DNA of 64,000 nt. Source: a virus. Below, piece after piece: positions 30,550 through 61,615 of the stretch. The first letter of the stretch is position 1, and each line of letters starts with the position of its first letter. The notes beneath the pieces were generated by a model. The model saw nothing but the letters and a program-made list of their open reading frames with translations. It did no database searches and had not been told where the DNA came from. The position numbers and the translations under genes were made by a program. The stretch is taken from the IMG/VR virus record IMGVR_UViG_3300029258_004282, positions 1-64,000 of that record, one strand, 5' to 3'.

Positions 30550-31140
30550 ATGACTATTCGCGAAAACTTTAAGGTTAAAAACCAAACTTTAAATTTGCAG
30601 CAGAAAATCGTTGTTCCTGCAGAGCCTGCTTTCCAGAAAGTGTCTGGACATGTTTTTGGTTGGTTAACGGATGTAAGAACTGGGGAAAAGACTCACTTTG
30701 ACCTAGGAAAAAATGTAATTGTCCAGGATGCCTCCGTTTTAATGGGCATCTTATTAAAATCTCCATCTACCTTAACAGGGGGCTTACAATATTTAGCCGT
30801 TGGAACAGGGGCCATAGGGTGGAATTTACAGCAACCACCAGCGGCTACTAGTTCCCAAACACAGCTAGAAGCAGAATTATTCCGGAAAACCTTTTCAAAA
30901 ACTGCCTACATTAAGACAGATGGAAGTGGTGATGAAAGTTCAACGCCAACTAACATTGTTGATTACACTACAATCTTTGCAGAGTCGGAAGCCGTAGGCC
31001 CTCTAGTGGAAATGGGCCTTTTTGGTGGGAACGCAACCGGCGTTCCAAATAGCGGCTACATGTTTAATTATAAAACGTTTCCGGTAATTAATAAAAGTGC
31101 TACCTCCACTTTAACGTTTGTATGGAGAATAACCACTTAA
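30550..31140 (+). CDS. Putative tail/virion protein, first gene of the fibre module
   Basis: A 196-residue beta-rich protein. It has a VSGHVFGWLTDVRTGEKTHF segment, then DASVLMGILLKS, a LQYLAVGTGAIGW motif (about residues 79-91), AELFRKTFSKTAY, IVDYTTIFAESEAVGPLVEM and a last FNYKTFPVINK strand. I recall proteins with an AVGTG...LxxExxR pattern in tail fibre and baseplate-distal regions of various phages, but I cannot name the family. No enzymatic motif is seen. The end overlaps the retropepsin-like gene by one base (TAATG at 31138). A role in attaching or terminating fibres is inference from position. Confidence 0.55.
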   Translation: MTIRENFKVKNQTLNLQQKIVVPAEPAFQKVSGHVFGWLTDVRTGEKTHFDLGKNVIVQDASVLMGILLKSPSTLTGGLQYLAVGTGAIGWNLQQPPAATSSQTQLEAELFRKTFSKTAYIKTDGSGDESSTPTNIVDYTTIFAESEAVGPLVEMGLFGGNATGVPNSGYMFNYKTFPVINKSATSTLTFVWRITT

Positions 31141-31556
31141 TGGATGTTTTTGTTAACTATAAACAAGAAATTTTATTAAAAGATTCTGGTGGCAAGAATC
31201 ATATTGCAATTGCTAAGTTTGATACCGGAGCGGATAATTGCAGTATCGATGAAGCATTAGCTAAAAAATTAAAATTGGATGGAAATATTGTGGGCGAGGC
31301 AGAAATCATTAATGCTAATGGTTCTGATGACCGCCCAATCATAGAGATTGAAATCATATTAAAAGATAGAGAAGACATAAGCATAAAAACTTACGCAACA
31401 TTGGCAGATCGCTCTAACTTGGATACACCTCTTCTTATTGGTAGAAATGCATTGCAACAAGAGGAGGGGGAAGAAATCAGATTTTTTGTGGACCCCAATG
31501 TTGAAAAAGTTGCACGACAATTAAAAAATATAGCAGAGCAGATCAAGAAATCATAA
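31140..31556 (+). CDS. Retropepsin-like aspartic protease, RimK-associated type
   Basis: A 138-residue protein from the ATG at 31140, which overlaps the previous stop by one base; an in-frame ATG at 31122 is possible but less likely. The chain has the retropepsin signature: IAIAKFDTGADNCSIDEAL with catalytic DTGA at residues 28-31, a long flap region, and a C-terminal DRSNLDTPLLIGRNAL ending in the hydrophobic LIGRN motif (98-105). The DRS...LIGR combination resembles the RimK-associated retropepsin-like family formerly called ATP-dependent zinc protease. These act as homodimers. Its location between fibre genes suggests virion protein maturation, but that is inference. No RimK or glutamate ligase is adjacent. 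Confidence 0.75.
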   Translation: MDVFVNYKQEILLKDSGGKNHIAIAKFDTGADNCSIDEALAKKLKLDGNIVGEAEIINANGSDDRPIIEIEIILKDREDISIKTYATLADRSNLDTPLLIGRNALQQEEGEEIRFFVDPNVEKVARQLKNIAEQIKKS

Positions 31557-45909: not shown

Positions 45910-48900
45910 ATGGCTACGCAAGAACAATTATCATTAAGCAAGTTTTTTAAACTATACGTACCCCCTAATACGTTTACGGGAAGTACCCCGCTTACTGTTA
46001 AAATAACAAATACCCTAAATAATGAGTATGTTCAAGCAGTTTACTCTGATTTAGATGATGTGAATGCCCAGGTATTCCCAGTAGCTTCGGGATCAACATT
46101 ACCTTCTGCCTACTTACCCAATCCAAAATTTTGGGATGGGGTTTCTCTTGATTTCTTTAGGAATTCTAAGGATCTTCCTGTCCTCGTAGAGGTAAGCAAC
46201 TCTGAAGGGACTATTAAAACAGTATCTTGTTGGCCCTGGTATCTCCCATTCATCAGCGATGATAATATTCCTCTCGTTGGAAATTTTGATCCTGTTTATC
46301 TTAAAGGATTGGATTGGCCTTGTGACTGTGTTCCTGAGTCTCCGGTAGATATAACAATTGGGGCACAAACAAGTAACGAACCAATTATTACCTATCCTGT
46401 TTCAGAAAATATTCTGGGGAATCACTTTCTAGAGTCAAATAAACCTTTGGTTCATTTACTTTCTGAAAAAAGGGGTCAACCAGCATTACTTAATTATCTA
46501 ACAAGCTTAACTTTACCAACTTCTCCTCCAAAATTTGCTGAGAATAATATTCCATCGATCTTGGGGGATATAAAAAATATAGAGCCTCTAAGAACAGATC
46601 AAATTACTTTCTACCGGGGGCATAATGGAGATTGCCTAATTTATATTGGTAGGTTGCTTCATCCTTTAATTTCAAGCCCAATTTCTTTCTATGTTGTTGA
46701 GACAACCCCAGACACGGGTTATCAACAAGTAGTATTTGCGAAAGTTTGTGAAGAGCCCGATAGTGTAAATTGCACCACATGGAGACTTCCCGACTTTACA
46801 TTTACCCCAGGAAGATATTATCAGGCTTTAATGTATAATCCTTGCAGTGCTTATGTAACAGCTCCAAAGGATATAACTTATGGCCCAACGTTCCCACAAG
46901 ATTTCATTTCAGTCTCTACTGTACCTAACACTAACGTGGCTCTTGTTTCAGTTGATATTGATCTTCCCGGGAACGAATCAAGGATTAGAAGCTCCTTTGG
47001 AACTTGGGGAGGAACATTCCCTCAAACCTTTGTTTTCTCTTCCCCTGATAAGACTGGCTTAACATACGACTACGTTGAAAATAAGCGTTTTACCTTTACT
47101 AATGGAAATATCCTAAATGGAAAAGACTTTCATCTAGGAAATGCTAAGCTTTTTAGATTCGTGCCTGCTTCTCAAAGGTATTACCCCGGATTTAGCACTC
47201 GGTCTCATGGGTTTGTTTATATCACAGCTATTAATAACCCATCTTATGATTGCAATATAACCCAAAGTAGTTTGGGGACCTTTGTCCCGCTATTGCGGGC
47301 CGCGGTAAGTGGTTCTACCTTTATTGGAAAGGCCAGTACTGTTAGAGATATTATTGATGTTAGAAATACTGGCATAACAATTGACCTTTGGAATAACCAT
47401 ACCTATTTACATTCGACTGCAAGTGGATTTGGTCGTTATAAAGTATCAGGTGCTTCTGGGTATTACCCAGGGGCCTATCCCCTAGACTTAAGTTTGCGGC
47501 ATCTTCTACTTGATGCAAATTCGGGGGTTACCCCAGATACTGCAGAAGTTTGGAGGGATACGTTTAATCATCCGCTTGAACTTAAAAAAGCGATGATTAT
47601 TGGGTCTGGGACTATGCTTCCTTACGACCCGAATCATGCATATTATTCTCCAATCACCCGTTTTTCGGGAGTGGTTCCTGCGGAGGACAGAAGCCAGATT
47701 ATGCCTTACTTCTCTCCCTTCTCCACGGATTCGCGAGGATATGCATATCCTCCTTGGGCTGAGGGCCCGATTGTTCGAATGTATGCGAATCATAGAGAAG
47801 ATTGGATGGGGTATGAATTTATTCCTCATATATTACCTCATATTCAAAGAACAGTTGCTTTTGCTTTCCAGAATTCAGGATATCGTCATCCTTGGAGTTC
47901 TGCGGGAATTATAGGATTATATGATCCCGCTATTCGCGTTGACTTGGTTAGTAACAAGACCTACTTATTAACTAATGATTCTTTTAGTTTATCCTCTAAA
48001 AACTTCCAAAGGCATGCTTCTGGGTCTAACTTTGCTTCTTCTGGATATCAATTAGCAATTAGAAGTAATACGGACAGAAAGGATATTGTTCCAACACTAA
48101 GTGAAGTTCGTTGGTCGGACACTTTCGCTAGCAGTGGCGGGTCGCTTGATGATCGAAATTTTGGAAGCGCAAACCCAATAGTGGTTGGGGCTGCAAATGT
48201 CTTGCCATTTAATCCAACTTGGCCACGTTTCTATCTATTTGATTATTATGACGAAGATTGGACATGCAATAGGATTTGGAATGGGGATTGGCAAAGGGAG
48301 GCAACTGCTAGATTCTTTACCAAAGATTATTTCCTTCATTCTGCAGATTATCTTAGTACCTTATATGGCAGAAATCGGGGGGAAATTCGGTATAACCTAG
48401 ACACCTCAAAGGTTAATATCACTAGGGACCTAAAACAAAATAAAACAATCATTACAGCTCAAGAATATTTTATTGATGAGGATTTTATAAATTCGGCTTC
48501 GGGTGCTGCTAATGGAACAACTACAGTTATTTTAGATATTAGGCATACCTTTGATGGTAGAGATAGCGAAACAAAAGAACCGCTCACTACTTTTATACCT
48601 GCCAGCGGTAATTCCATATTTTACTCAAGTGCTGCTTTAACAATAAATCCTTTAAGCCCTTCTCCAACGCTTGAATTTAATGTTCCTGCCTTAGCTGGGC
48701 AAGGGGGGCCTTCTGGGTTATCCGTAGCGGATAATGGCGGTGGAGCCTTATCAAGCATCCCTCGGGGCTTCGTAGCAACTTTTAATAGTGCCGGTAGCGA
48801 TGTAATTCCAACAAATATCGAGAGAATGACGAAATCAGGGATTTCAAACACAGCTAGTATTATAGCAGACCCATCCTTAGGAAGTGGGGGTGGGATTCAT

Positions 48901-49479
48901 AATAGAAATTGGGTAATGCTATATTGTTCGGACTATGGGGATCCCGGGTCTTCCTCTTATCTTGCAAATCATTCTGATTGGATGGGAATCTTTAGACCGG
49001 TGGATATTGATTATAACTTAAATAGAACTTTAATGCATGTTGAAATTGATTGGCTAAATAATAAGACTAACCTTTACTTCTCTGGCACTAGGTTTGGGTC
49101 AGGGTCATTTTATCTTAGTTCCGGGACAAGTCCGTTTACGTTAGCTCTAAGAAAACCTGTCTTAGAACAACCCAATACCTTATTCCCTTCACACCACGAC
49201 GAAGTTTTCAGAAGGGAATTCACTTATAGCATGGTTTCTGGAGCATATAATTTCCAGGTTTACCCAATTAAGTATACTATTGGGGATGCTTCTTTGTTAG
49301 GCGTTAGGGCGGATATGTATAATGTAAGCGGTGTATATTGTTATGCTTACGCAAATTACGAAGACGATGAATTAGGATTGCCAATTCCTATCAGAATATT
49401 TGATTCTTCTGCAGGAACAGGATCAGGGGGAACCATAACAGGATCATTCGGCTCTTCCTTTAGTTCTGCTTTTAGTTAA
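45910..49479 (+). CDS. Large virion protein with at least three internal repeats
   Basis: A 1,189-residue beta-rich protein. At least three internal units share an (I/V)D(L/W)xxNxTxL signature (I491, V677 and I1046), preceded by a YxxxxxDW segment such as HREDWMGYEF or HSDWMGIFRP. The signature is followed by SG turns, LALR-type strands and an EV(W/F)RxxF or EVRWSDTF end. A more degenerate fourth unit occurs near 840. The C-terminus is Gly/Ser-rich (GTITGSFGSS). No known enzyme motif is seen. The repeats would suit a fibre shaft or an adhesin-like arm. It follows an AGGAG site at 45895, and a short neck/tip protein follows. Confidence 0.6.
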   Translation: MATQEQLSLSKFFKLYVPPNTFTGSTPLTVKITNTLNNEYVQAVYSDLDDVNAQVFPVASGSTLPSAYLPNPKFWDGVSLDFFRNSKDLPVLVEVSNSEGTIKTVSCWPWYLPFISDDNIPLVGNFDPVYLKGLDWPCDCVPESPVDITIGAQTSNEPIITYPVSENILGNHFLESNKPLVHLLSEKRGQPALLNYLTSLTLPTSPPKFAENNIPSILGDIKNIEPLRTDQITFYRGHNGDCLIYIGRLLHPLISSPISFYVVETTPDTGYQQVVFAKVCEEPDSVNCTTWRLPDFTFTPGRYYQALMYNPCSAYVTAPKDITYGPTFPQDFISVSTVPNTNVALVSVDIDLPGNESRIRSSFGTWGGTFPQTFVFSSPDKTGLTYDYVENKRFTFTNGNILNGKDFHLGNAKLFRFVPASQRYYPGFSTRSHGFVYITAINNPSYDCNITQSSLGTFVPLLRAAVSGSTFIGKASTVRDIIDVRNTGITIDLWNNHTYLHSTASGFGRYKVSGASGYYPGAYPLDLSLRHLLLDANSGVTPDTAEVWRDTFNHPLELKKAMIIGSGTMLPYDPNHAYYSPITRFSGVVPAEDRSQIMPYFSPFSTDSRGYAYPPWAEGPIVRMYANHREDWMGYEFIPHILPHIQRTVAFAFQNSGYRHPWSSAGIIGLYDPAIRVDLVSNKTYLLTNDSFSLSSKNFQRHASGSNFASSGYQLAIRSNTDRKDIVPTLSEVRWSDTFASSGGSLDDRNFGSANPIVVGAANVLPFNPTWPRFYLFDYYDEDWTCNRIWNGDWQREATARFFTKDYFLHSADYLSTLYGRNRGEIRYNLDTSKVNITRDLKQNKTIITAQEYFIDEDFINSASGAANGTTTVILDIRHTFDGRDSETKEPLTTFIPASGNSIFYSSAALTINPLSPSPTLEFNVPALAGQGGPSGLSVADNGGGALSSIPRGFVATFNSAGSDVIPTNIERMTKSGISNTASIIADPSLGSGGGIHNRNWVMLYCSDYGDPGSSSYLANHSDWMGIFRPVDIDYNLNRTLMHVEIDWLNNKTNLYFSGTRFGSGSFYLSSGTSPFTLALRKPVLEQPNTLFPSHHDEVFRREFTYSMVSGAYNFQVYPIKYTIGDASLLGVRADMYNVSGVYCYAYANYEDDELGLPIPIRIFDSSAGTGSGGTITGSFGSSFSSAFS
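47370..49330 (+). repeat. Repeated beta modules in the 1,189-residue virion gene
   Basis: At least three units centred on codons at 47380, 47938 and 49045 carry the same (I/V)D(L/W)xxNxTxL core and similar flanking DW and LxLR segments. Spacing is irregular (186 and 369 residues), and a degenerate unit lies between the second and third. The similarity is at the protein level. Confidence 0.6.
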
Positions 49480-49494
49480 AAAGGATAAATAAAT

Positions 49495-50055
49495 ATGGGA
49501 ACGACAGAAAACGAAAGAACCCGGTCAGAACTAGAAAGTTTATTTGCAAATAATTCTTCAGGAAATATTTCTGCGCAAGATACAAGGGATTTAATTGCTA
49601 CAGCCCAGGGAGGGTATTGGGCAAACCAATATACTGGGCTTCAAACTTTTCCAGGCAGCGGGACAACCGGCGCTCCTGACTGGGGCGGTACTTCTGAAGT
49701 TGTAGTCGCCGAAGGAGTCGATGTTTCTGCCGACGGTGCCTCTCTTGTAACAGACGAAAGTGGATATATTGAAGTCCAGCGACAAGGTGTTTATGAAATT
49801 TATGCTGATATTTATGACGCATCTACCCCAGATTCTGGAAATTATACAATAGGAATTTATACAATTTCTGACGGCCTTTGGACCCCTCTACTAACAAGGG
49901 TCCTTACGCCGACTGCTGACCCTTTCTTTATGTCCTTAAAGCTCGTAAGAGAAATATCTGCTTCAACAGTTTTAAGCCTCGGTCTATCTAACGACTCTGG
50001 GGGGGACTTGGATGTAGCTTGTACAGTTACTTTTAGCATGAAAAGGCTTGGTTAA
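49495..50055 (+). CDS. Small fibre tip-like protein
   Basis: A 186-residue protein. The N-terminal segment (RSELESLFANNSSGNISAQD, then TRDLIATAQGGY) is a motif I associate with phage fibre proteins. Residues about 75-186 look like a jelly-roll: GYIEVQRQGVYEIYADI is followed by alternating strands and a closing VTFSMKRLG. TNF/C1q-like fibre tips have this strand pattern. No cysteine or enzyme motif is seen. It follows the repeat-rich virion protein and precedes a larger fibre protein, so a terminal or receptor-binding role is reasonable but unproved. Confidence 0.55.
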   Translation: MGTTENERTRSELESLFANNSSGNISAQDTRDLIATAQGGYWANQYTGLQTFPGSGTTGAPDWGGTSEVVVAEGVDVSADGASLVTDESGYIEVQRQGVYEIYADIYDASTPDSGNYTIGIYTISDGLWTPLLTRVLTPTADPFFMSLKLVREISASTVLSLGLSNDSGGDLDVACTVTFSMKRLG

Positions 50056-50067
50056 AGGAAATATAAA

Positions 50068-51240
50068 ATGGTGCAACCAGTCCAAAGAGATCAAGTGGGG
50101 GACTTTTATGTCCGGAATAATGGTGGGGACACTATTACGGATGCCAACCCAAATGGGCATTACACGGGATCGCCGGATACTAATGGCCTCATTATAGATA
50201 AAACAAACATCTCCTCGGCTCTAGATAGCCTTCAAGTTAGAACTGCAGGAAGCGGAAGAGCTGGTTATTTTCTAGGAACTGGGACCGGAAAAGTTCTTGT
50301 CGTTGAGAGATCTAATATTAGTGCTACTGCCCCCGTTGTTGAAATTATTAATAATTCCGCAGCAGATCAATTCAATGCAACTGGTTTTAAGATTGACTAT
50401 ACTGGAAAGACAACAATTAGCCAAAACTTAGATGTTAGTGGCGCCTTATCTGTTAATGACCATTCGACTTTTTCAGACGGGGCCACTTTTGAAGGGCACT
50501 CTATTTTCGACGATGATGTTTCATTTAACGGAAATATTATTACGAACTTAAATCTTACGAAAGCCTTAAATGTTACTGGCGATATAAATGCAGCAGCAAA
50601 TGTAAATGTTTCCGGAAATATTAGTGGGACTAACATTAAAGCAACAAACCAGATAGATGCCTCTGGGGGGTTTGGTCCTCTTCTACAAGGGTACGTATTA
50701 GATAATGCTGTGGAATTTGGAATTTTTCAGGTTGTTCTCGGCGTCCCAGCAAACCTTACTTTATTCCGCGTAAGCGGTACTTTTGATATATGGTCAGGAA
50801 CTACATTAGGGGTTTCTTCTGCGGATGTTACCGGGGAATATAGAGGACTTTCTGTTAGTAATTTTAAGTTCCCCGATGGCACTTTATTAAGTGGCCTTTC
50901 AAGTACTTTTTTAGGGGCTAAACCATATATAAGGCTTATTGGGGCAGTTGGGGGTATCCCTGACTTTACATTCGCCACAGGTACTTTGGATTCAAGGTTT
51001 GTATGGGAGTTAAATGACCAAGGAATATTATGGTTTAGGTCTCCTTCCTATATAAAAACAGAGCCTTCGTATTTTAGAGCTTACCTCAATTTCCAAGTAT
51101 TATTAAAAAAGGCTGGGTGGCAAAATTATTATTCCACAGCTTTTGTTAGCCCGGATTCAATACCAACAAGCGATCCATCCTATATTTGGAAAGATGGATA
51201 TGATATAAGCCGTCCGGAAGTATCCGGCGGAACTCTATAG
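50068..51240 (+). CDS. Tail fibre-like protein with repetitive beta segment
   Basis: A 390-residue protein. A short N-terminal domain (QPVQRDQVGDFYVRNNGG) is followed by strand-rich sequence. Residues about 115-200 are a repetitive segment of short strands separated by Gly/Asp/Asn turns (LDVSGALSVNDHSTF, ATFEGHSIFDDDVSF, GDINAAANVNVSG), typical of trimeric beta-helical fibre shafts. The last 180 residues form a globular tip rich in aromatic residues (WQNYYSTAFV, WKDGYDIS). It is followed by an AGGAG site and the Ig-like gene. It is very likely a fibre, though which one cannot be told. Confidence 0.6.
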   Translation: MVQPVQRDQVGDFYVRNNGGDTITDANPNGHYTGSPDTNGLIIDKTNISSALDSLQVRTAGSGRAGYFLGTGTGKVLVVERSNISATAPVVEIINNSAADQFNATGFKIDYTGKTTISQNLDVSGALSVNDHSTFSDGATFEGHSIFDDDVSFNGNIITNLNLTKALNVTGDINAAANVNVSGNISGTNIKATNQIDASGGFGPLLQGYVLDNAVEFGIFQVVLGVPANLTLFRVSGTFDIWSGTTLGVSSADVTGEYRGLSVSNFKFPDGTLLSGLSSTFLGAKPYIRLIGAVGGIPDFTFATGTLDSRFVWELNDQGILWFRSPSYIKTEPSYFRAYLNFQVLLKKAGWQNYYSTAFVSPDSIPTSDPSYIWKDGYDISRPEVSGGTL

Positions 51241-51251
51241 GAGATGTAGAT

Positions 51252-51839
51252 ATGTTAGTTGTTTTTGCAACTGAGGATCACGATAAATATAAACGACACG
51301 ACATAATAGCCTTTCATTCTAGCATGCAAGACCAAAAAGGGAATTCTCTCGAACCGCAAAAAACGAATTTGCCTAAAGAGTGCTATGCTTATTGGGGGAT
51401 CCCAAAGAAGAAAACAGACTTTTTGATTGTTCCTGATAACTTTGAATTAATGAAGAAACAGGGGGATTTTAGGGTTAATAAGCTTAGAAATGGGATTGAG
51501 AGAAAACTAAAACCCATTTTAATTTTGACAACCGATGCCCGGGATACTGTCCAACCATATGATGGGTATCCTGATATTCCTGCTAATGGCGTTTCAGAAG
51601 CCACCATCTATATCCAAAAATCTTTCCTTGGAGGGGACCCCTGCGCAAAAGATTCCGATAACGAAGAATTAATTATTGAAACTTCCCGTGGTAAATTATC
51701 AAACTTAAAGGTAAAATTAAAAAAGGGTAAGGCTAGCTTTAAGGTTAAAAGTGTCCCCGAAACTGTTTTAGCAACTATTACAGTTTTCGACCCTTCTGGA
51801 ACTATTGATCCAGCAAAAATTGTAATCCAGTTTGCCTAA
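51252..51839 (+). CDS. Protein with C-terminal bacterial Ig-like domain
   Basis: A 195-residue protein. Residues 1-90 are a small alpha/beta part with YAYWGIPKKKTDFLIVPDNF. Residues about 100-195 form a bacterial Ig-like (invasin/Big_1-type) domain: IPANGVSEATIYIQKSFLGG, LIIETSRGKLSNLKVKLKKG, a conserved KASFKV strand and VPETVLATITVFDPSG. Such domains occur in phage virion proteins that contact cell surfaces. The gene sits at the boundary between fibre genes and the glycosyltransferase cassette. Its start follows an AGGAGATG binding site. A surface-attachment role is inferred. Confidence 0.6.
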   Translation: MLVVFATEDHDKYKRHDIIAFHSSMQDQKGNSLEPQKTNLPKECYAYWGIPKKKTDFLIVPDNFELMKKQGDFRVNKLRNGIERKLKPILILTTDARDTVQPYDGYPDIPANGVSEATIYIQKSFLGGDPCAKDSDNEELIIETSRGKLSNLKVKLKKGKASFKVKSVPETVLATITVFDPSGTIDPAKIVIQFA

Positions 51840-51846
51840 ATAACAA

Positions 51847-52929
51847 ATGAATATTTTAACTTTTATTTCAGGGTTCGATGGTTGTGGTTACTATCGAGCT
51901 GCTGTCCCATCTCTTGCCTTAAATAAATACCCTGGGGTTGTTGCCCGAATTCAAACAGCTTACAGCGAAGAAGCCCTAGATTGGGCAGATCTTATAATTA
52001 TGCAAAAGCAATATAAGGATGAAGTACGGCCTTGGCTGAAATTAGCAAAAGAGAAAAAAAAGCCAGTAATTTATGAAGCGGATGACGATTATTTTAATTT
52101 ACCTAGCTGGAATCCAACAGCAAAATGGTTTCAAGAAAATAAGGAAAAATGGCTTTGGTTTATTAAAAACGCAGATGCTCTAATAGTTTCAACAGAATAC
52201 CTTAAAAATCAATACTTAAAATATAATCCTAATATTTATGTCTTAGAGAATGGGATTAATTTCGATATAATTGATAAACTTGAACAAGGGGGAAATCCTC
52301 TTCGAGTAGCTTATAAGGTAGATCCAAAACGCGGAAAGTCTGCGTTAACAAGAGAAGAAATTATCAAAAGCAAAGCTGATGGTTATATTCATATTGGTTG
52401 GGGAGGGTCACCCACTCACCATCATGATCTGGCCTTGATTCAAGATCTTCTTTTGGGGATTTTGTCGAAATATTCTACTACTAAACTCTTTCATATCGGA
52501 TACACGTTAGATTTTCTAGCAAAAAAGGCCCCGAAAGATAGATTTTTCATGATAGAAGGGGTGGATGTTGATAAGTATCTGCCGTTATTGCATTTTTTAG
52601 ATTTAGATATTGGTGTTGCGCCATTAGTGGATAATGTATTTAATCGAAGTAAAAGCAATTTAAAATCTATTGAATATATGGCACTGAAAACTGCAGTAAT
52701 TGCATCAGATGTTGAAAATTATTCAAAGACCCTAAGACGTAAAAATGTGGGGTTCCTTTGTGCGGGAAAAAAAGATTGGAAGAAAGCATTAGAAAACTTA
52801 ATTAAAAAAGCAAGTTTAAGAAAAGAAATCCAAAATAACGGTTATAATTTAGCAAGGGAAAATTATAATTCATATACTCAAGCAGAAAAAAGACTTAAAA
52901 TTTACCGGGAGTTAATCAATGATGGATAA
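51847..52929 (+). CDS. Glycosyltransferase, GT4-type, copy 1
   Basis: A 360-residue enzyme of GT-B fold. The start has GFDGCGYYRAAVPSL, an acceptor-side Gly motif. VIYEADDDYFNLP is followed by a helix and VLENGINFDII. A second Rossmann half begins at IHIGWGGSPTHHHDL (about residue 178), with LDLDIGVAPLVDNVFNRSKS near 255-275 and SIEYMALKTAVIAS, the usual nucleotide-sugar contact region of GT4 proteins. The donor and acceptor are not predictable. It is related to the larger gene at 57285. It begins eight bases after the Ig-like gene and overlaps the following gene by 11 bases, so it is part of the late operon. Decoration of virion proteins is the likely job (inference). Confidence 0.8.
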   Translation: MNILTFISGFDGCGYYRAAVPSLALNKYPGVVARIQTAYSEEALDWADLIIMQKQYKDEVRPWLKLAKEKKKPVIYEADDDYFNLPSWNPTAKWFQENKEKWLWFIKNADALIVSTEYLKNQYLKYNPNIYVLENGINFDIIDKLEQGGNPLRVAYKVDPKRGKSALTREEIIKSKADGYIHIGWGGSPTHHHDLALIQDLLLGILSKYSTTKLFHIGYTLDFLAKKAPKDRFFMIEGVDVDKYLPLLHFLDLDIGVAPLVDNVFNRSKSNLKSIEYMALKTAVIASDVENYSKTLRRKNVGFLCAGKKDWKKALENLIKKASLRKEIQNNGYNLARENYNSYTQAEKRLKIYRELINDG

Positions 52930-55588
52930 AAAGAAGTATCGGGGATATATTAAACAGCTAAAGGCTATTGGCAGAAATATTAAAACTGCAGCTTTTACCA
53001 GCCATAGTGGGGAAGAGCATGAAATCCTCAAAAGCGATATTGGGACTGTTGAATCGGCTCCTCTTTATATCATGAAAAATGGTAAAGCAGTTCGTCTTGG
53101 TACCTTCATGACAGATTTGCAAGATGCCGTCGCAAAAGCAAATCACCAACTCAACGAACCCTTTAAGTCTATATCTGAGGAAAATATTAAGGTTAGAAAG
53201 TTTAACCAACAAGAGTTAGCTCTATTGGAAAATGCTAGAAGATACCCCACCCTAGAAAAAGCCCTTAATCGGGAAGTTGATGCTCTAGTCCGAGTCAAAA
53301 GAAAGAAAGCAGGTAGGGAGCCTTCGGAACCAGTTACAGATAAGGAACGCGAATCTGCTAGAAAATTAGTTGTCAAAAGACTCCTGGATAGAACACATAA
53401 AACAGATTTTGCTAAGTATCTAAAAGAAACACTCAGCGGAATTATTGGAGACGACTTATCCAGTAAAGCCCGAAATGGTTTGGTTAAAATATTAGATGCT
53501 ACAGCATTGCCCATGTTCCAATTAAGCTCTAGCGGGGGGCACCAAGTAATTAGTGGAAAAGTTCCTACGGATTCCGGTGAGGTTGAAGTTAAGGTTACTA
53601 TGAGTAACGGAACTGGTTTGGACCTTGAGCGAAAAGCAGACATCCTTGGGGTTAATTTAGAACCAAAGGATGAAGAAAAAGAAGACCATATTAAAAATCT
53701 ATTACATGAGACTTTAGAGCATCTTCGGGTTAAAAGAATTGCTGGAAAATTGAACGATCTTCTTATTAAATTCGATGCTGCCGGAGTCAGTGAAACTGAC
53801 CCCATGATCCAAAACTTAAATAAAGAGATTGCGTTCTTAAATAAGCATGGTGGGGAATTATCAGCTCATAAGTTAAACGAACTGGCGGAAGAGATAGAGG
53901 ATTACCAGGAACTTCTTCTAGATGCGGGGACCGACGAAGAACCCGAGACTGATGCTTTTAAGGTTTTAGAAAAAAGAATTAATAATTTAGAAACGAATTA
54001 TAACGAACAACATCAAACAGAATATGTTGATATTAACAAGCATTTATTTAACTACCTTCAACATTTTGTCCGGGTAATTCAAGAGCATGGGATCGCCCCT
54101 GCTGGGCCAAAAACCTTACAAAAGCTTAGGGCCCTTACCAATATTCAATTCCAGCTTCCCAAGTCGGGAAATGCCAAATATAATATTTCCCATAATGTTC
54201 TATTAGATTGGGTTAAAACCCTCCTTAATGGTTTGGTTATTATGCAAAGAGGGGAAAAGGAAGAGGTAATTAACATTGTTAATCTCGAAGACTTTATTAG
54301 GTCTTGCCTGGTTTATAACACTGGGGGACGTTATGATGTAGAAAACTTGTCAAACATTCACCACGTAACAAAAACAACACGAGATCTTCCTGGAAAGAGA
54401 AAGCAGGGGCCACAAGCGGCACCTCGAGAATCCCAAGATTCAACCTTTATTCCGTTAGGTGGCATTAATGCCCTTTCTGCGGCACCCTCAAGGGTCACTC
54501 CCCTGACAGGAATTCCCGAGTCTGTTACAGAAGTCACGAATTACCAAGATATGTTAGATAACCTAGGCTTAAAGGATCACCAACTTCGGATTGATGATCC
54601 TAATTTAAGGAATCTTAATATATCTAATACTTCGGGGCACCCAAATATCGCAAAGGCTGGTATTACTAAGATGCCTATTGCTTCCTATGCTATCTTTAAG
54701 GACGACTTAGGCGACTATTTAGTCTGGAGAAAAGAGGGAAGCAATGTTTGGCATTCTGACCGCCCCAATTCCTATGAAATCGAGTTTCAAAAGAGAAAAT
54801 TAAAGAAAACTGAAAAGGGTGATTTTGCAGAAGAAGCCGGGAAAAGTGCAGAGTCCTGGGAATGTGAAGACTGTGGGATGCGACAAGCTCCACGGGATAT
54901 TATTCAATGTTCTTCTTGTGGTTTTAGAGAAAGCAAACAAAAGGCAGATAAATTATATGATGCTAAAACCCAAACATATATTTGCCCAGAGTGTAAGTCT
55001 GAGATGAAGGCATTGTTGGATTTAGATTGTGCCTCTTGTGGTGGGGATCTTGCTAAGAAGATGAATGTTGAGACGAGAGAGCCAAAGTTAAAAGAATTAG
55101 AATCCGGGGCGGTTAAAAAGATTAAAACTTTATATAAGTTTGATCTTGATAGAGACCTTCTCCAATTCTCTAAGGTTTTGGATGCAAAGAAAGAAGAGGG
55201 TGGAGATGCCCATGCGGCACATAATTTAACCCCAGATGAAATTAAAAAATACGTCACTGGGTCTTACAATATGCCGGGATCGGACAAAGCAAATATTTCT
55301 GGTCGGCACGGTGCCTTAGCAATGTTTATCTTCCGGTTTATTTATGAGGAAATGTTAGGAAAGGGCTATCATCACGATCTTAAAGTTATTAGGGAAGTTG
55401 ATGCCCCACCTCTAATGAGTGCCGCAACAGAGCTTACTAAGATTTTAGAAGACCTCTATAAGAAGGGGAAGAGCCATAGCACAGACGAACGTGCAATGAA
55501 AGCTTTTGATGCCCTAATGAAAGCTTATGGTGGTATCCCAGAAGAGGGAAAAATGGGAGAAACTGAAGAAACAGAGGAAGAAGAGTAA
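52919..55588 (+). CDS. Large protein with two zinc ribbons
   Basis: An 889-residue protein that I do not recognise as a family. It starts with tandem ATGs (52919 and 52922), with GGGAG at 52907-52911. Residues 1-110 are a small domain with APLYIMKNGKAVRLGTF. Residues 255-390 are charged and coiled-coil-like. Residues 530-640 include SYAIFKDDLGDYLVWRKEGS. Two zinc ribbons follow: C649/C652 with C664/C667, and C689/C692 with C704/C707. The last 60 residues are acidic (ending EETEEEE). It overlaps the GT4 gene by 11 bases and the next start by one base. A scaffolding or nucleic acid-binding role is possible. Nothing decides it. Confidence 0.65.
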   Translation: MMDKKKYRGYIKQLKAIGRNIKTAAFTSHSGEEHEILKSDIGTVESAPLYIMKNGKAVRLGTFMTDLQDAVAKANHQLNEPFKSISEENIKVRKFNQQELALLENARRYPTLEKALNREVDALVRVKRKKAGREPSEPVTDKERESARKLVVKRLLDRTHKTDFAKYLKETLSGIIGDDLSSKARNGLVKILDATALPMFQLSSSGGHQVISGKVPTDSGEVEVKVTMSNGTGLDLERKADILGVNLEPKDEEKEDHIKNLLHETLEHLRVKRIAGKLNDLLIKFDAAGVSETDPMIQNLNKEIAFLNKHGGELSAHKLNELAEEIEDYQELLLDAGTDEEPETDAFKVLEKRINNLETNYNEQHQTEYVDINKHLFNYLQHFVRVIQEHGIAPAGPKTLQKLRALTNIQFQLPKSGNAKYNISHNVLLDWVKTLLNGLVIMQRGEKEEVINIVNLEDFIRSCLVYNTGGRYDVENLSNIHHVTKTTRDLPGKRKQGPQAAPRESQDSTFIPLGGINALSAAPSRVTPLTGIPESVTEVTNYQDMLDNLGLKDHQLRIDDPNLRNLNISNTSGHPNIAKAGITKMPIASYAIFKDDLGDYLVWRKEGSNVWHSDRPNSYEIEFQKRKLKKTEKGDFAEEAGKSAESWECEDCGMRQAPRDIIQCSSCGFRESKQKADKLYDAKTQTYICPECKSEMKALLDLDCASCGGDLAKKMNVETREPKLKELESGAVKKIKTLYKFDLDRDLLQFSKVLDAKKEEGGDAHAAHNLTPDEIKKYVTGSYNMPGSDKANISGRHGALAMFIFRFIYEEMLGKGYHHDLKVIREVDAPPLMSAATELTKILEDLYKKGKSHSTDERAMKAFDALMKAYGGIPEEGKMGETEETEEEE

Positions 55589-56169
55589 TGAAAAGAGAAG
55601 CTTTGCAAGTCGACCCTTCTTCCTTGGGAGCGAGAAGAAGGGTCGACATCAGCGAACTCAAGTCAAAGTTCCGAGAAGCCGAAATAAGTCATGAGCTTGC
55701 TCTAGATTATGATGGCACCCACTATTCTGACGATAAAAGTTTATTTAGAAATATTATAACAGAATATAATTTAGGTAGCGGTGCCTATGGAGTTTATGAC
55801 CCTAAACATTCAATGAAGGTAAAAGAGGAACTGGCGAGTAAATTACAGTATAAAGAAAAGGACCTAGAGGAGTTAGGTCATAATGTCTTTGGGGTCAGCT
55901 TTGGTATTAATGTAAATCGAATTTTGCAGGAAGCAAAGAAACTGTATTCTGGGGATATTTGGAAGTTTTTCGCTATTATTTATATAGCCGAAACAATGAT
56001 CCATGAAGCTGCCCACGCAACCTATGGGGCTTCCGAACCCGAAGCAGAAAGGGAGGCGGCGGCTTTTAGGAGCTGGGCTTTAGAAGAAACAAGGGCAAAG
56101 AAAATTTTAAGTGCATTAAATATAAAAGATGTAGATCTTATCCAAGACCTGGAGAAAGGGTTAAACTAA
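55588..56169 (+). CDS. Putative HExxH zinc metallopeptidase
   Basis: A 193-residue protein. A hydrophobic helix (IYIAETMIHEAAHATYG) contains H139-E140-A-A-H143, the HExxH zinc site. It is followed seven residues later by E150 and further acidic residues at E152, E154 and E156, any of which could be the third zinc ligand of a gluzincin-type enzyme. The N-terminal 130 residues have no catalytic motif. There is no signal peptide. It is coupled by one-base overlaps on both sides. A perfect 14-bp inverted repeat (55609-55647) lies in its first codons. The substrate is unknown; processing of virion or host proteins is possible. The fold assignment needs a structure model. Confidence 0.6.
   Translation: MKREALQVDPSSLGARRRVDISELKSKFREAEISHELALDYDGTHYSDDKSLFRNIITEYNLGSGAYGVYDPKHSMKVKEELASKLQYKEKDLEELGHNVFGVSFGINVNRILQEAKKLYSGDIWKFFAIIYIAETMIHEAAHATYGASEPEAEREAAAFRSWALEETRAKKILSALNIKDVDLIQDLEKGLN
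55609..55647. repeat. Perfect 14-bp inverted repeat at the start of the HExxH gene
   Basis: GTCGACCCTTCTTC (55609-55622) pairs with GAAGAAGGGTCGAC (55634-55647) around an 11-base loop. It begins 21 bases after the ATG at 55588 and encodes residues 8 to 20 of the protein. It is coding sequence, so it is not an ordinary terminator, and there is no T tail. An RNA hairpin this close to the start could reduce or time ribosome loading; an operator or recombination site is an alternative. Confidence 0.75.
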
Positions 56170-56525
56170 TGACGATAGATCTTAAGTCTTCCTTACGGTT
56201 TTTGCATATAGATTCAACAGTAAAATATGATCATGTAAGTGAAATTCTATTTTTTAGTGCTATAGAAACAGACACGGATGGAAGGCCAGTAGCAGATCCA
56301 GCAAAGATGATGTTTCTTGCCCCTTCCCAAGTAAGGCATTTCGTTCACGAAGGTGATTGGTTAAAGATTTGGGATTTTTATAGAGAACAGGACCCCGACC
56401 CAGTTCTTAGTCGTCTTATTGGGGATGAAGATTCTAAACAAATCTACCCTACTTTAGGATATAAGGTCGATAAATATAACTACGAAACAGGAACATGGGA
56501 TTATGTTTATGAAAAGATTGGATAA
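56169..56525 (+). CDS. Hypothetical protein in the glycosyltransferase cassette
   Basis: A 118-residue acidic protein with mixed helix and strand. It has FLAPSQVRHFVHEGDWLKIW near the middle and ends with YKVDKYNYETGTWDYVYEKIG, an aromatic-rich segment. It starts with a one-base overlap with the previous gene and ends five bases before the GT2 gene. I do not recognise the family. It could be a small adaptor or structural protein carried with the enzymes. Confidence 0.55.
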   Translation: MTIDLKSSLRFLHIDSTVKYDHVSEILFFSAIETDTDGRPVADPAKMMFLAPSQVRHFVHEGDWLKIWDFYREQDPDPVLSRLIGDEDSKQIYPTLGYKVDKYNYETGTWDYVYEKIG

Positions 56526-56530
56526 TAGTT

Positions 56531-57292
56531 ATGGAAATCGGGCTAGGGATCATAACATACAATAGAAAAGATTGTCTAATACAATGTATTAACAGCATCC
56601 GTCAAACGGATGCTTTTTTATTATCAAAAATTATTGTGGCTGACGATGCTTCCACAGACGGGACTGCGGAGTGGTTAAAACAACAAAAAGATATAATTTC
56701 TATATTAGGAAGAAAAAATGTTGGAGTTGCAAGAAATTCAAACCGCGCTTTAAGTTTATTAAGAAATGTTGACTATGGTTTTTTAATTAACGATGATGTA
56801 AAATTTAATAAGCCTGGTTGGGTTCGCAAATACGTGAATGCAATGTTTAAATCCCCATACCACCATTTTGGTTTTATGGGCGGGCAGCTAGGAATTAATT
56901 TAGTTAAGGTTGAAACAATCAGGGGTGTAAAAATTTCTTTCCATAACCAAATGATGGGAAGTTTCCTTACTTTCACTAAAAAGATTTTAGAGCGAGTGGG
57001 GGGATTTAATGCTAACTATGGAAAATATGGGTTTGAACATTCAGAGTGGACAGAGAGAATTAGTTTAGCCGGGTTAGGTTACCCTTGCGACTTAAATAAC
57101 CAAACCCCAGAAAAAATAAAAATTATAGACATTGCAGAGAGCTTAGAATATATTTCTGATATTCCTTTTAATAGTGTTTACTCAGAGCCGCAGAAATTAG
57201 AATTATTACAGCAAGGACTAATTTTAAATAGCCAAGTTGTCAGAGATCGAAAAACTTTATACCAGCCTTTTATAACAGAAGAAAATGCGTAA
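56531..57292 (+). CDS. Glycosyltransferase, GT2-type
   Basis: A 253-residue GT-A enzyme. IGLGIITYNRKDCLIQCINS at the start and VADDASTDGT (residues 36-45) form the nucleotide-sugar site. The NDD at 87-89 sits at the position of the DXD metal-binding motif. GGFNANYGKYGFEHSEW (about 157-173) corresponds to the acceptor/catalytic region of GT2 enzymes. The last 80 residues are not diagnostic. It overlaps the following GT gene by eight bases. A terminator-like hairpin lies inside the coding sequence at 56594-56619. It probably acts with the two GT4-type neighbours to build a glycan on a virion protein or host surface molecule. That step is inference. Confidence 0.8.
   Translation: MEIGLGIITYNRKDCLIQCINSIRQTDAFLLSKIIVADDASTDGTAEWLKQQKDIISILGRKNVGVARNSNRALSLLRNVDYGFLINDDVKFNKPGWVRKYVNAMFKSPYHHFGFMGGQLGINLVKVETIRGVKISFHNQMMGSFLTFTKKILERVGGFNANYGKYGFEHSEWTERISLAGLGYPCDLNNQTPEKIKIIDIAESLEYISDIPFNSVYSEPQKLELLQQGLILNSQVVRDRKTLYQPFITEENA
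56594..56619 (+). terminator. Terminator-like hairpin inside the GT2 coding sequence
   Basis: AGCATCCGT (56594-56602), CAA loop, ACGGATGCT (56606-56614), with a TTTTTT run at 56614-56619. The 9-bp GC-containing stem, small loop and T tract fulfil the pattern of an intrinsic terminator. It lies about 60 bases after the GT2 ATG and is translated through (encoding SIRQTDAF). Ribosomes would normally prevent it from acting, so if real it would work as an attenuator or polarity element when translation is weak. Confidence 0.5.
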
Positions 57293-58895
57293 TAAGATAA
57301 TTTTTTATCAGGGGGACCCAGGGGGTTGCGGAGTTTTAAGAGTTGCCCAGCCAGCAAAATATTTGCAAAAGTTGGGTTACGATGTAAATGTAACTGCGTT
57401 GGAAACCCGTAATAGGATAGATCCTTCCACTGCTGTTTGTGTTTTCCAAAGAGACTATATTCAAGAGAATATAGTCGAGTATTGGAAATTTCTAAAGACC
57501 CAGGGAATAAAAATAGTTTACGACCTAGATGACGATATATTCAGTATCCCAAAAAACCATCCCGACTATACTTATTACCAAGACCCTGAGGTTAGAAGTA
57601 GGTTCGAGTTTTATCTACGGAATGCAGACGTTGTAACAGTTTCAACTCCTTTCTTAAAAAAGAGACTCGGCAACCTAAATAAAAACATAGAAGTTTTACC
57701 TAACTGTATTGATTTTGAGACTTGGCCTCGTAGGACAGAATCCATTCACAAAGATGTTCGAATTGGTTGGGCGGGCTCTCCAACTCATCATTATGACTTA
57801 ATGTTGATATTTCCCGCATTGAAGGCAATGATGAAAAAATATAATAATGTTCACTTATATTTTTTCGGTTATGCTCCACCAGAATTCTTAACTGAATTCA
57901 AGGACAAAATTATTTATATACACCCTGGGCATTATGGGTTTTACCAACTAAAGCTTTCACAGCTATGTTTTGATATCGGGATAATCTCAGTTGAAGATAA
58001 TAACTTAAATAGATCAAAAAGTAACGTTAAGTTCTTAGAATATGCTGCGCTGCAGATACCAACACTTGCTACAAATTTTGGTGCTTATGCAGATATAATT
58101 GTTGATGGTGAAACTGGTCTTTTAGCGAAGACAACCCAGGAATGGGAAAAGAAATTAAGATATTTAATTGATCATAAAGGAATTCGGGAAAAGATCGGGA
58201 AATCTGCGTTTGATTTTTGTTACCAGAACTATGGTATGCATAATTACGTTTACCAGTGGGAGAATGTTTATAAGGGGCTCTTAAGTGGAAATTTAGTTAA
58301 AATTCGCCAAGAAACCCCAACCGCCGAAACCCTAAATCAAGAAACTGGGTCGGAGGTTGCCATAATAGAACAAAGGGTTGATACCGAATTAGAGGAGGCC
58401 CAACTGTTCCACGATCAATACAACCTTTCAAAATTATTTACAAGGCAAAAAAGAATTTTATTAACAGATGCAGATTCTCTTTTTGGATTAAGCCTTTTAG
58501 AGAAAAGCAACCCAAGATCAGTTGAGGTTGTTTGTCCAGATAAAGAACAATATCAATCTTTTAAGACCCAATACTCGACAAAGGATATCTCTGGAATTAT
58601 TTACGATTTTAATAATAATAACGTACTTTTCCCAATTAATGATCCTTTTGATATAATTTTATCATTCAATACCTATACTAAATTAAAGGATAAGGGTAAG
58701 TTTTTAGGGCAATTACAGAAAGTCCTAAAGAGATTTGGGACACTAATTATTTCGGCAAAATTGCCAAATGAAGAAAAGTCCCAGTTTATTAAGAATGTGA
58801 AATATTTTTACAAGGTTAACGATGTAATTACCTTACAAGAAATTTTAAGGCCGTCATCAGAAAAGTTTACAGTAATCTTTGCTTCTAAATACTAA
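57285..58895 (+). CDS. GT4-type glycosyltransferase fused to a methyltransferase-like domain
   Basis: A 536-residue protein. Residues 1-340 are a GT4-type glycosyltransferase related to the gene at 51847: GDPGGCGVLRVAQPAKYL, IVYDLDDDIFSIP, VRIGWAGSPTHHYDL and DNNLNRSKSNVKFLEYAALQ. After a linker, residues about 388-536 have the pattern of a class I SAM methyltransferase: RILLTDADSLFGLSLLEKSN, VEVVCPDKEQ, DPFDIILSFNTYTKL and KRFGTLIISAKLPN. The usual Gly-rich GxGxG loop is not intact, so SAM binding is doubtful. It overlaps GT2 by eight bases and the M6-like gene by one. It may extend or cap a glycan. Confidence 0.7.
   Translation: MRNKIIFYQGDPGGCGVLRVAQPAKYLQKLGYDVNVTALETRNRIDPSTAVCVFQRDYIQENIVEYWKFLKTQGIKIVYDLDDDIFSIPKNHPDYTYYQDPEVRSRFEFYLRNADVVTVSTPFLKKRLGNLNKNIEVLPNCIDFETWPRRTESIHKDVRIGWAGSPTHHYDLMLIFPALKAMMKKYNNVHLYFFGYAPPEFLTEFKDKIIYIHPGHYGFYQLKLSQLCFDIGIISVEDNNLNRSKSNVKFLEYAALQIPTLATNFGAYADIIVDGETGLLAKTTQEWEKKLRYLIDHKGIREKIGKSAFDFCYQNYGMHNYVYQWENVYKGLLSGNLVKIRQETPTAETLNQETGSEVAIIEQRVDTELEEAQLFHDQYNLSKLFTRQKRILLTDADSLFGLSLLEKSNPRSVEVVCPDKEQYQSFKTQYSTKDISGIIYDFNNNNVLFPINDPFDIILSFNTYTKLKDKGKFLGQLQKVLKRFGTLIISAKLPNEEKSQFIKNVKYFYKVNDVITLQEILRPSSEKFTVIFASKY
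57453..57476. repeat. Perfect 10-bp inverted repeat in the GT4/methyltransferase gene
   Basis: GACTATATTC (57453-57462), AAGA loop, GAATATAGTC (57467-57476). It is about 170 bases into the coding sequence, AT-rich in the stem, without a T tract. It could be chance at this length. Confidence 0.5.
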
Positions 58896-61615
58896 TGTTT
58901 GTCTCAGGAACATATAAACTTCTAGGAATAAAAGTTCAATTCCAGGATATCAAGTTTGGGACAGGGCCTTTTCCAGCCCACGATCCTTACGTAACCACTC
59001 CTTGGGCAACTTTTCCGGATGCAACATCTTCTGGATATAATACATATCTTTACGAGAAGATGAAGAGTGCTACGGATTTTTGGGAAGATGCAAGCAAAGG
59101 ATCGTATTCGTTTAATTTATCTACAGGGGTAGGGTCGGGCTTTTCTCCAAACGTAATTCCAACAGTTTATACGGCATTACACGATATTCAAGCTTATGCT
59201 TCGGGCACATATGATTTATCTTCCGAAGTCTCCGGATATGCTATTTCGCAAGGTTACCCCTTGTATAATCCAACATCGGCGCCGAGTGGTTACCATGGTT
59301 ATGTTATTTTTACGTCTGCTTTATCCTATGATCAATTCAAATACATAGACCCAAGTTTTGATGAGAAATGGAGACTATTAAATTGGGCAAAACCTCCTAA
59401 AACTTATACCCTAGGAACAATTACAGTTCCGGGGGTGGAACAGGAAACTTTTAGATTAAATGGGAGCTTGACAAAACAACTTGGGAAAGCTTTAGGTTTT
59501 GACTACCTAGAAGCTTCCCCGAGAAACGTGATATCCGGAAGTTTTGGTGTTGGGTTTTTCGGGATTATGGGAAGTGGCGAATTTTTGGGGTTATCCCCTA
59601 ATGACGTCGTCCGTGGAAGAAACCCATCTTACCCAAGTGCTTTTACGCGCTCGCAGGGAGGATGGTATCCAATTACGGAGATATCCGAATCTACTTTTAA
59701 TGTTCGCCTCTATGACCCTAAGTCTTTTACAAGTGGGACTTTAGTAAAAATTTCTCACCCGACTAAATCTTATGAGTATTTCTTATTAGAGTATCGTCAA
59801 GCGATAGGCTACGACGCAGGGCTAGCTCCGGGGTTAACAACAACTACCCCAGGCAACACGGCACAAGGGTTACTCATTTGGCATATAGACGAGACGGCGC
59901 CTAACTTTACAAATATAACAAACTACCCCTATAGAAATAAAGTAGCTCTACAACAAAAAGATGGGTTTTACGAGATAGAGTTAAACGAAAATCGAGGTAA
60001 TAGCGAAGACCCATATCCAGGATCAATCGTAAAGATTTATTGGTACAATGATGCTACTGACCCATCTAGTAGCTGGTATAGCGGTGCTTCATATTTCAGT
60101 GTTTCTATCCCTCGTGATTTTAGTTATAACGATTATTTTGATATTGATATTGGGCTAGACCAGCCTATTAGCGTTTTATATACTGAAAATATAGATCTTT
60201 CAGATCGGCCAGGCTTTACAGGTTCGGGGTTTGATACCTCGGGTGCCCTTACTTCTGCAATTACAGATTGTTCCACTGGGCCTTGTATCTTGGGGTGCTT
60301 ATCTGGAAGTGGCGCACACACCGTGGTGGATTATCCTAATACTGTTGATTTTTATTTAGGAAACCCATCAAATTATAATTTAGTTGGGGTTGAATCAAAA
60401 AGTATTGTTAATACTATTCCCATTATGGATTCTTTCCAACCAAGTATTTACGATACAACAAGTGCCTCTGAGTGGATTGTTGCCTCAAATTCGTCCCTAA
60501 TCAAGAAATTTTCGTTTAATGACTTGGCTGCTGGGTTTACTGATTTAGATCTTATTTCGGGTGGGATTAATGCTTTTGCTGCAAATGATAATTTCTTATG
60601 GGCTGCACGAAATGCTAACTCGCCTTTAGGGTCTGCTGCCATTTCAATTTATAGAGGAAGCGGTAGCCTGCTTTCTAGAATTAATACCGGAACGTACCTA
60701 TGTGATTATTTATATGCAGATTTATTTAAAAATTCATCTGTGTGGGCAGCTTTGAGAAATACTCAAGCTCCCTACGATTCATTGCTTGCAAGATATAAAA
60801 CTGCTACTCAAACTTTCTCCTTAACTTTAGTTAGTGGTGGGGGAGTTTTAAGTGGCGCAATAACTTCCGGATTTAAGAATACCCTTTCTGGAAGTTTCTT
60901 TTTCGGCAATAGTTATATTAATAGGGGCATTACTCAGCACCCAATTTCTGGGACTTTATTCGCTGCCTACCAAGCAGGGTCCGGAAATAATTTAGTTTTT
61001 ACTCTTGACTCCTTTTCCCCAACGGTCGCATCTGGTTGGGAGCTAGGATCCGGGGCCTTAAAGGGGTTAGACCTAACTCATTACGCATCTGGTCTTTGTT
61101 TCGCTATAGCTTCTGATGTTTATAAGTATGATCTAAATGGAATTTTGGATCGAAATTATTATATAAGTGGTGGGCTAGCCTCGGGTTTGAATATTGATAG
61201 TAATAATTCTGCGTGGGTAATTAATGGGAATAATATTATTAATCTAGACCTTGATAGTGGGGGCATAGTTCAATTGGGAACAGGGGATACTTTGGCAGCC
61301 TGGGGGAATTTTATTCAAAAAGTTCATCCCATTATTTGTGCCGGAACTGAATTTAATATTCTTGCTTCCGGAATAGCTGGAACCCAGATTTTTACTTCTG
61401 GTGGGGTTACTTACGATGTAACTTTCCCAATATCAAGTTTTCATTCTTCGGCTTCTATTCAAGGACCCTTTTGGTTAGGAGAGGTGCCCATAACTGTTGC
61501 CCAAGAACAATTAAATGCTATAATTAGTGGTTGTCAATGCTATTTTAACGATACCCGGAACTTTATCTCCTTAAAATCCATTGCTCCCGCAAACTTAACC
61601 TGGAAAAACCCTTAA
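58895..61615 (+). CDS. M6 peptidase-like virion protein with replaced active-site motif
   Basis: A 906-residue protein. The start (YKLLGIKVQFQDIKFG ... DFWEDASKGSYSFNL) resembles M6/immune inhibitor A-type metallopeptidases. MGSGEF (225-230), the LLEYRQAIGYDAG segment and GLLIWHIDE (325-333), then VALQQKDGFYEIEL and DPYPG, also match the conserved pattern after the M6 catalytic helix. The helix that should carry HExxH reads G-S-L-T-K-Q-L-G-K-A-L-G-F (190-202), so the two His and the Glu are replaced by K194, Q195 and K198. Zinc catalysis is therefore unlikely. Residues about 430-906 are beta-rich and propeller-like. A binding or structural protein seems most likely. The start overlaps the previous stop by one base; no ribosome binding site is visible. 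Confidence 0.6.
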   Translation: MFVSGTYKLLGIKVQFQDIKFGTGPFPAHDPYVTTPWATFPDATSSGYNTYLYEKMKSATDFWEDASKGSYSFNLSTGVGSGFSPNVIPTVYTALHDIQAYASGTYDLSSEVSGYAISQGYPLYNPTSAPSGYHGYVIFTSALSYDQFKYIDPSFDEKWRLLNWAKPPKTYTLGTITVPGVEQETFRLNGSLTKQLGKALGFDYLEASPRNVISGSFGVGFFGIMGSGEFLGLSPNDVVRGRNPSYPSAFTRSQGGWYPITEISESTFNVRLYDPKSFTSGTLVKISHPTKSYEYFLLEYRQAIGYDAGLAPGLTTTTPGNTAQGLLIWHIDETAPNFTNITNYPYRNKVALQQKDGFYEIELNENRGNSEDPYPGSIVKIYWYNDATDPSSSWYSGASYFSVSIPRDFSYNDYFDIDIGLDQPISVLYTENIDLSDRPGFTGSGFDTSGALTSAITDCSTGPCILGCLSGSGAHTVVDYPNTVDFYLGNPSNYNLVGVESKSIVNTIPIMDSFQPSIYDTTSASEWIVASNSSLIKKFSFNDLAAGFTDLDLISGGINAFAANDNFLWAARNANSPLGSAAISIYRGSGSLLSRINTGTYLCDYLYADLFKNSSVWAALRNTQAPYDSLLARYKTATQTFSLTLVSGGGVLSGAITSGFKNTLSGSFFFGNSYINRGITQHPISGTLFAAYQAGSGNNLVFTLDSFSPTVASGWELGSGALKGLDLTHYASGLCFAIASDVYKYDLNGILDRNYYISGGLASGLNIDSNNSAWVINGNNIINLDLDSGGIVQLGTGDTLAAWGNFIQKVHPIICAGTEFNILASGIAGTQIFTSGGVTYDVTFPISSFHSSASIQGPFWLGEVPITVAQEQLNAIISGCQCYFNDTRNFISLKSIAPANLTWKNP

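Follow-up and report, generated by a model that had tools for sequence, protein, structure and literature searches.

What are three predicted glycosyltransferases (GTs) doing inside the tail operon of a large phage, interleaved with genes for an HExxH protein and a large zinc-ribbon-like protein? The window analyzed here is a stretch of 64,000 nucleotides of IMG/VR record IMGVR_UViG_3300029258_004282; the whole record has 64,822 bases, so the window represents only part of a larger genome. An initial annotation of this stretch (hereafter the sequence-only reading) had proposed one tightly coupled gene cluster between fibre genes and an M6-like virion protein, and the list of open reading frames bore this out, placing every gene that it named on the plus strand with the same coordinates and order (Table 1). 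From the fibre side through the M6-like gene, successive junctions are a gap of 7 bases, overlaps of 11, 1, and 1 bases, a gap of 5 bases, and overlaps of 8 and 1 bases. The flanking fibre and M6-like genes belong to a phage-G-like tail operon: the operon's tail-tube-like and gp25-like proteins, its baseplate wedge, and proteins encoded downstream have matches in Bacillus phage G, Tunturi_5, and the uncultured 485-kb phage LR745208, and, as judged from these tail gene sequences, the window phage groups with phage-G-like large myoviruses. Promoter-like sites in the window were no commoner than in shuffled sequence. A perfect 9-pair hairpin followed by TTTTTATTAT (56594-56614, plus strand) resembles a terminator; it lies within the GT2 reading frame and may have arisen by chance.

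Table 1. Genes of the GT cluster and its immediate flanks in the window
Feature	Position	Strand	Basis
Fibre-like and Ig-like tail proteins, directly upstream of GT4a	45910-51839	+	Open reading frame list
GT4a, GT-B fold glycosyltransferase	51847-52929	+	PF00534 and PHROG 7162; L025 orthologue
889-aa orphan, four CxxC pairs (zinc-ribbon-like), acidic C-terminus	52919-55588	+	No relative found
193-aa HExxH (zincin-like) protein, uncharacterised large-phage family	55588-56169	+	12 viral-contig relatives
118-aa orphan	56169-56525	+	No family match
GT2 (GT-A fold) glycosyltransferase	56531-57292	+	PF00535, PHROG 2456; nearest named relative Myrna gp234
GT4b (~residues 1-340) fused to degenerate methyltransferase-like domain (~385-536)	57285-58895	+	PHROG 7162; Methyltransf_31 partial
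M6-like virion-type protein, probable pseudopeptidase	58895-61615	+	TIGR03296; HExxH replaced by KQLGK

The assignment of all three GTs, made earlier from the letters alone, held up in family searches. GT4a and GT4b match Pfam Glycos_transf_1 (9.4e-7 and 3.7e-8, respectively) and the glycosyltransferase family PHROG 7162 (7.6e-45 and 2.2e-45), and both contain the GWxGSPTHH and NRSKSN blocks by which they had been called related. In both enzymes, the GT-B C-terminal donor-site block (KSxxKxxE in the family) and the GWxGSxTH block occupy invariant columns. GT2 matches Pfam Glycos_transf_2 (3.4e-15) and PHROG 2456 (1e-32); its N-terminal DD nucleotide site and metal-binding acidic block are present as VADDAS and INDDV, and its distal ED dyad reads EH. 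The proposed methyltransferase-like domain fared less well. The C-terminus of GT4b gave only partial Pfam matches (Methyltransf_31, 3.4e-4), and no glycine-rich SAM motif I was recognizable there, ILLTDADSLFG standing in place of the GxGxG-type loop; from these residues, the domain may be inactive. Searches of viral contigs with single proteins (GT4a, GT4b, or the 889-aa protein) returned no relatives. We also considered GT4b as a close homologue of the solved Phi92_gp126 and rejected this match (E 0.26).

The comparison that weighed most was with a sister tail operon, that of a distant phage, on contig IMGVR_UViG_3300029267_003710 (loci L025, L105, and L106). This contig shares the gene order of the window over a run that opens with the gp25-like gene, includes the wedge, and extends across four more tail genes (32-40% identity in local alignments), and, after its fibre-like genes, it carries adjacent, overlapping orthologues of GT4a (L025:9998-11095, 38% identity) and GT4b (L025:11073-12077, 37% identity, without the C-terminal methyltransferase-like domain). 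In a tree of 56 GT4 sequences inferred by maximum likelihood, the two pairings have support of 98/85 and 99/88, respectively. Identity between the window and the sister contig over whole alignments is 43% for the wedge, 38% for GT4a, and 37% for GT4b. The tree pairing, together with GT4 divergence close to that of the wedge, indicates an old pair kept with the tail operon and rejects a recent duplication as the origin of GT4a and GT4b. No gene separates the two GT4s in the sister contig, and therefore the 889-aa, HExxH, 118-aa, and GT2 genes are not obligatory to the pair. The sequence-only reading had suggested a search for the same cluster in other genomes: the GT4 pair was recovered in this sister tail operon, with no peptidase-like genes between its members; the contig ends soon after GT4b. 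Directly after GT4b lies a frame named by inspection as transposase/TnpB-like, on the opposite strand (L025:12070-12645).

Related GT genes also accompany structural genes beyond this pair of contigs. An apparently unrelated phage (L103) has GT2, GT4, and methyltransferase genes in succession; another GT4 comes next, followed by the genes for the portal and the major head protein. This GT2-GT4-methyltransferase order is also found in the window, as GT2 and the GT4b fusion; the methyltransferase of L103 is intact, and the two GT2 proteins share 30% identity over 103 residues (E 3e-13 in a single comparison). Portal, major head, or other head-structural genes were present in the GT4 locus of all five contigs examined (L031, L035, L044, L091, and L103), which were picked by hand from the GT4 clade holding the window enzymes rather than at random. 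Head proteins and head-tail adaptors were among the commonest neighbour families (133 neighbours at 45 viral loci, counted without a background rate). Linkage of GT genes to structural genes thus recurs across phages; in phi92-like phages and Atuin, related GTs lie away from structural genes. GT4s of the PHROG 7162 type were absent from five relatives with recognizable tail genes (LR745208, Tunturi_5, phage G, L109, and L114); hence, the GT set is not essential to this tail type. The wedge, used to scan genome contigs, yielded short domain matches only.

GTs in tail and head operons are an already known pattern, as the sequence-only reading had said of tail operons, and the window shares features with several described phages. 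Among named proteins, Myrna gp234 is the closest relative of its GT2 (6e-15, 95% of the query at 27.5% identity). The Myrna genes for gp234 and for gp238, a glucosyltransferase, immediately precede a virion structural gene (239) and two minor tail genes (241 and 242). Glycosylated proteins have been reported for Myrna, Che8, and Corndog (Freeman et al. 2023, as related in PMC12363180 and PMC12619734). The window resembles the virion glycosylation of these phages in having phage-encoded GTs, one of them kin to a Myrna protein encoded beside structural and minor tail genes; it differs in adding two GT4s inside the tail operon, in a GT2 identity of just 27.5%, and in being known from genes alone. 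Other members of the PHROG 7162 family (Streptomyces phage Zuko gp5, podovirus ctQWt234, and IMG/VR phages) likewise lie, in several cases, in or beside head-tail operons, whereas in the window there are two paralogues of long standing, and one of them is extended by a methyltransferase-like domain. In the phi92-like coliphage cluster (phi92 gp164, EC.P2), a GT2 also adjoins two related GT4s, but near replication genes, and its GT4 pair is an independent duplication (a sister pair at 100/100), as seen in Escherichia phage EC.P2 (L008:3571-6747). XacN1, whose virions contain glycoproteins (PMC5852040), and moraphage are jumbo phages that, like the window phage, encode several GTs, the likeness being one of gene content.

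We next considered the genes between GT4a and GT2. The sequence-only reading had named an HExxH protein and a large zinc-ribbon protein, and the motifs of both are in place. HEAAH is the sole HExxH among 40 predicted window proteins, and H139, E140, and H143 are invariant in 8 diverged aligned relatives, which argues that the motif is real and not a chance occurrence; a downstream acidic residue is nearly conserved. A model of the 193-aa protein is of moderate confidence (pLDDT 75), and Foldseek with this model found no match in the PDB, including solved zincins, or among viral models. None of the relatives' 12 viral loci has a recognizable GT4 or GT2 near the HExxH gene, and searches of the whole records of five of the contigs gave one weak, partial GT4 match, ~12 kb away in that of L013. 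The 889-aa protein has four CxxC pairs at residues 649-707; it had no convincing Pfam, PHROG, or NCBIfam match and no credible homologue even at E 10, and its single-sequence structure model was unusable (pLDDT 38). The 118-aa orphan had no Pfam, PHROG, or NCBIfam match. Separately, HExxH relatives (L013, L014, L015, L016, L017, L018, and L021; see also L010:18735-19346) start with a leader such as MxxF[KR]xW[LF], absent from the window copy. Leaders of this type also open unrelated neighbouring genes (NUDIX-like and kinase-like; L014, L017, and L018) and resemble those that target T4 internal proteins to the capsid.

The M6-like protein was correctly placed in its family, judging by TIGR03296 (1.3e-11, yet 44.9 bits against a cut-off of 110.8), and it also weakly matches the inactivated-M6 model NF052323 (6.7e-4); PF05547 gave no match. 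Its catalytic motif is gone: aligned by eye within the surrounding M6-type motif order, residues 194-201 read KQLGKALG where M6 enzymes have HExxHxxG. On these residues, it is probably a pseudopeptidase and, while adjacent, probably lies outside the glycosylation set.

Because the GT4 pair is kept in a sister tail operon, GT sets occur in head operons, and GT2 resembles Myrna gp234, we consider glycosylation of a virion protein the best reading of the three-GT set (probability roughly 0.6), with acceptor, donor, and activity all predicted from sequence. The three GTs would form a late-expressed virion glycosylation set, in which GT2 and the two anciently diverged GT4s, GT4b with its methyltransferase-like domain, would use nucleotide sugars of the host to assemble a short glycan on one of the tail proteins from the same operon. 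Operon position by itself does not reveal the acceptor; it would most likely be a fibre or another distal tail protein, and the fibre-like and Ig-like proteins upstream of GT4a are candidates (S+T content 0.18-0.22 in three fibre-like proteins and 0.12 in a 195-aa protein). A protein acceptor within the virion, the order of sugars, and a benefit through shielding or altered adsorption are what we infer from this arrangement. We read the HExxH, 889-aa, and 118-aa genes as inserted and as serving some other function, and we take the M6-like protein for a structural pseudopeptidase. Of the earlier proposal of virion or fibre glycosylation with proteolytic trimming, comparative context thus favours the glycosylation and lends the trimming no support, given a GT4 pair without peptidase-like genes, an HExxH family found elsewhere away from such GTs, and a lost M6 motif.

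Such GTs could instead act on other substrates. They might modify a host surface polysaccharide during infection, masking receptors or excluding superinfection; related GTs are moron genes in the PHROG classification, some of them of GtrB-like O-antigen conversion type, in L026 the GT4s are part of a larger cluster of polysaccharide type, where genes resembling an epimerase and a sulfotransferase were named by inspection, and cyanophage GT clusters have been proposed to modify polysaccharide (PMC7824862). We nevertheless regard this as unlikely, since the set lacks a flippase (GtrA) and a membrane GT, its GT4 pair is kept with tail genes, and the late timing of a tail operon would probably be too late for much help. 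Glycosylation of modified bases in phage DNA is the least probable of the alternatives: phage GTs often hypermodify DNA, as in T4-like phages (PMC13390438), but the window has no base-modification gene, the GTs are surrounded by tail genes, and phi92-like phages, with a GT2 and a pair of GT4s from the same families, are exceptionally sensitive to restriction-modification (PMC8594841). DNA-modification or surface-polysaccharide genes may lie outside the 64.8-kb fragment.

Overlapping genes interleaved between GT4a and GT2/GT4b would also fit a coupled machine in which one fibre protein is glycosylated by the GTs and trimmed by the HExxH peptidase together with the zinc-ribbon protein. The adjacency of GT4a and GT4b in the sister operon, HExxH relatives in other large phages that are not beside such GTs, and an M6-like protein without its catalytic motif make this improbable. 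A more specific proposal is that HExxH proteins form a new small metallopeptidase family of large phages and that this phage has recruited its copy, along with the 889-aa zinc-ribbon protein, to a tail-operon set by which a fibre protein is both cleaved and glycosylated in the course of assembly; it strikes us as more doubtful still. Equally doubtful is a transient cargo insertion without a virion role: the cassette is missing in several relatives, but the orthologous pair is kept beside tail genes down to ~37-38% identity, with family-invariant residues in both enzymes.

If virion glycosylation is indeed the function of the three GTs, then protein glycosylation of virions, documented in a few mycobacteriophages, would extend to phage-G-like large phages, with tail proteins as acceptors. 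A head or tail operon containing GT2 and GT4 genes might then mark a phage with glycosylated virions, a property that affects adsorption, stability, and antibody recognition. Other outcomes of the analysis are an HExxH family, as yet uncharacterised, in large phages and an M6-like tail protein that has been inactivated. Elsewhere in the window, two further features drew our attention, both on the plus strand. A small protein inside the tail operon (31122-31556) resembles a retropepsin or a RimK-associated protease (DTGA ... LIGRNAL; PF05618 1.4e-5, PF13975 2.1e-5), and three tandem paralogues at 587-2792 are kin of one phage G virion structural protein gene and are possibly tail tube proteins.
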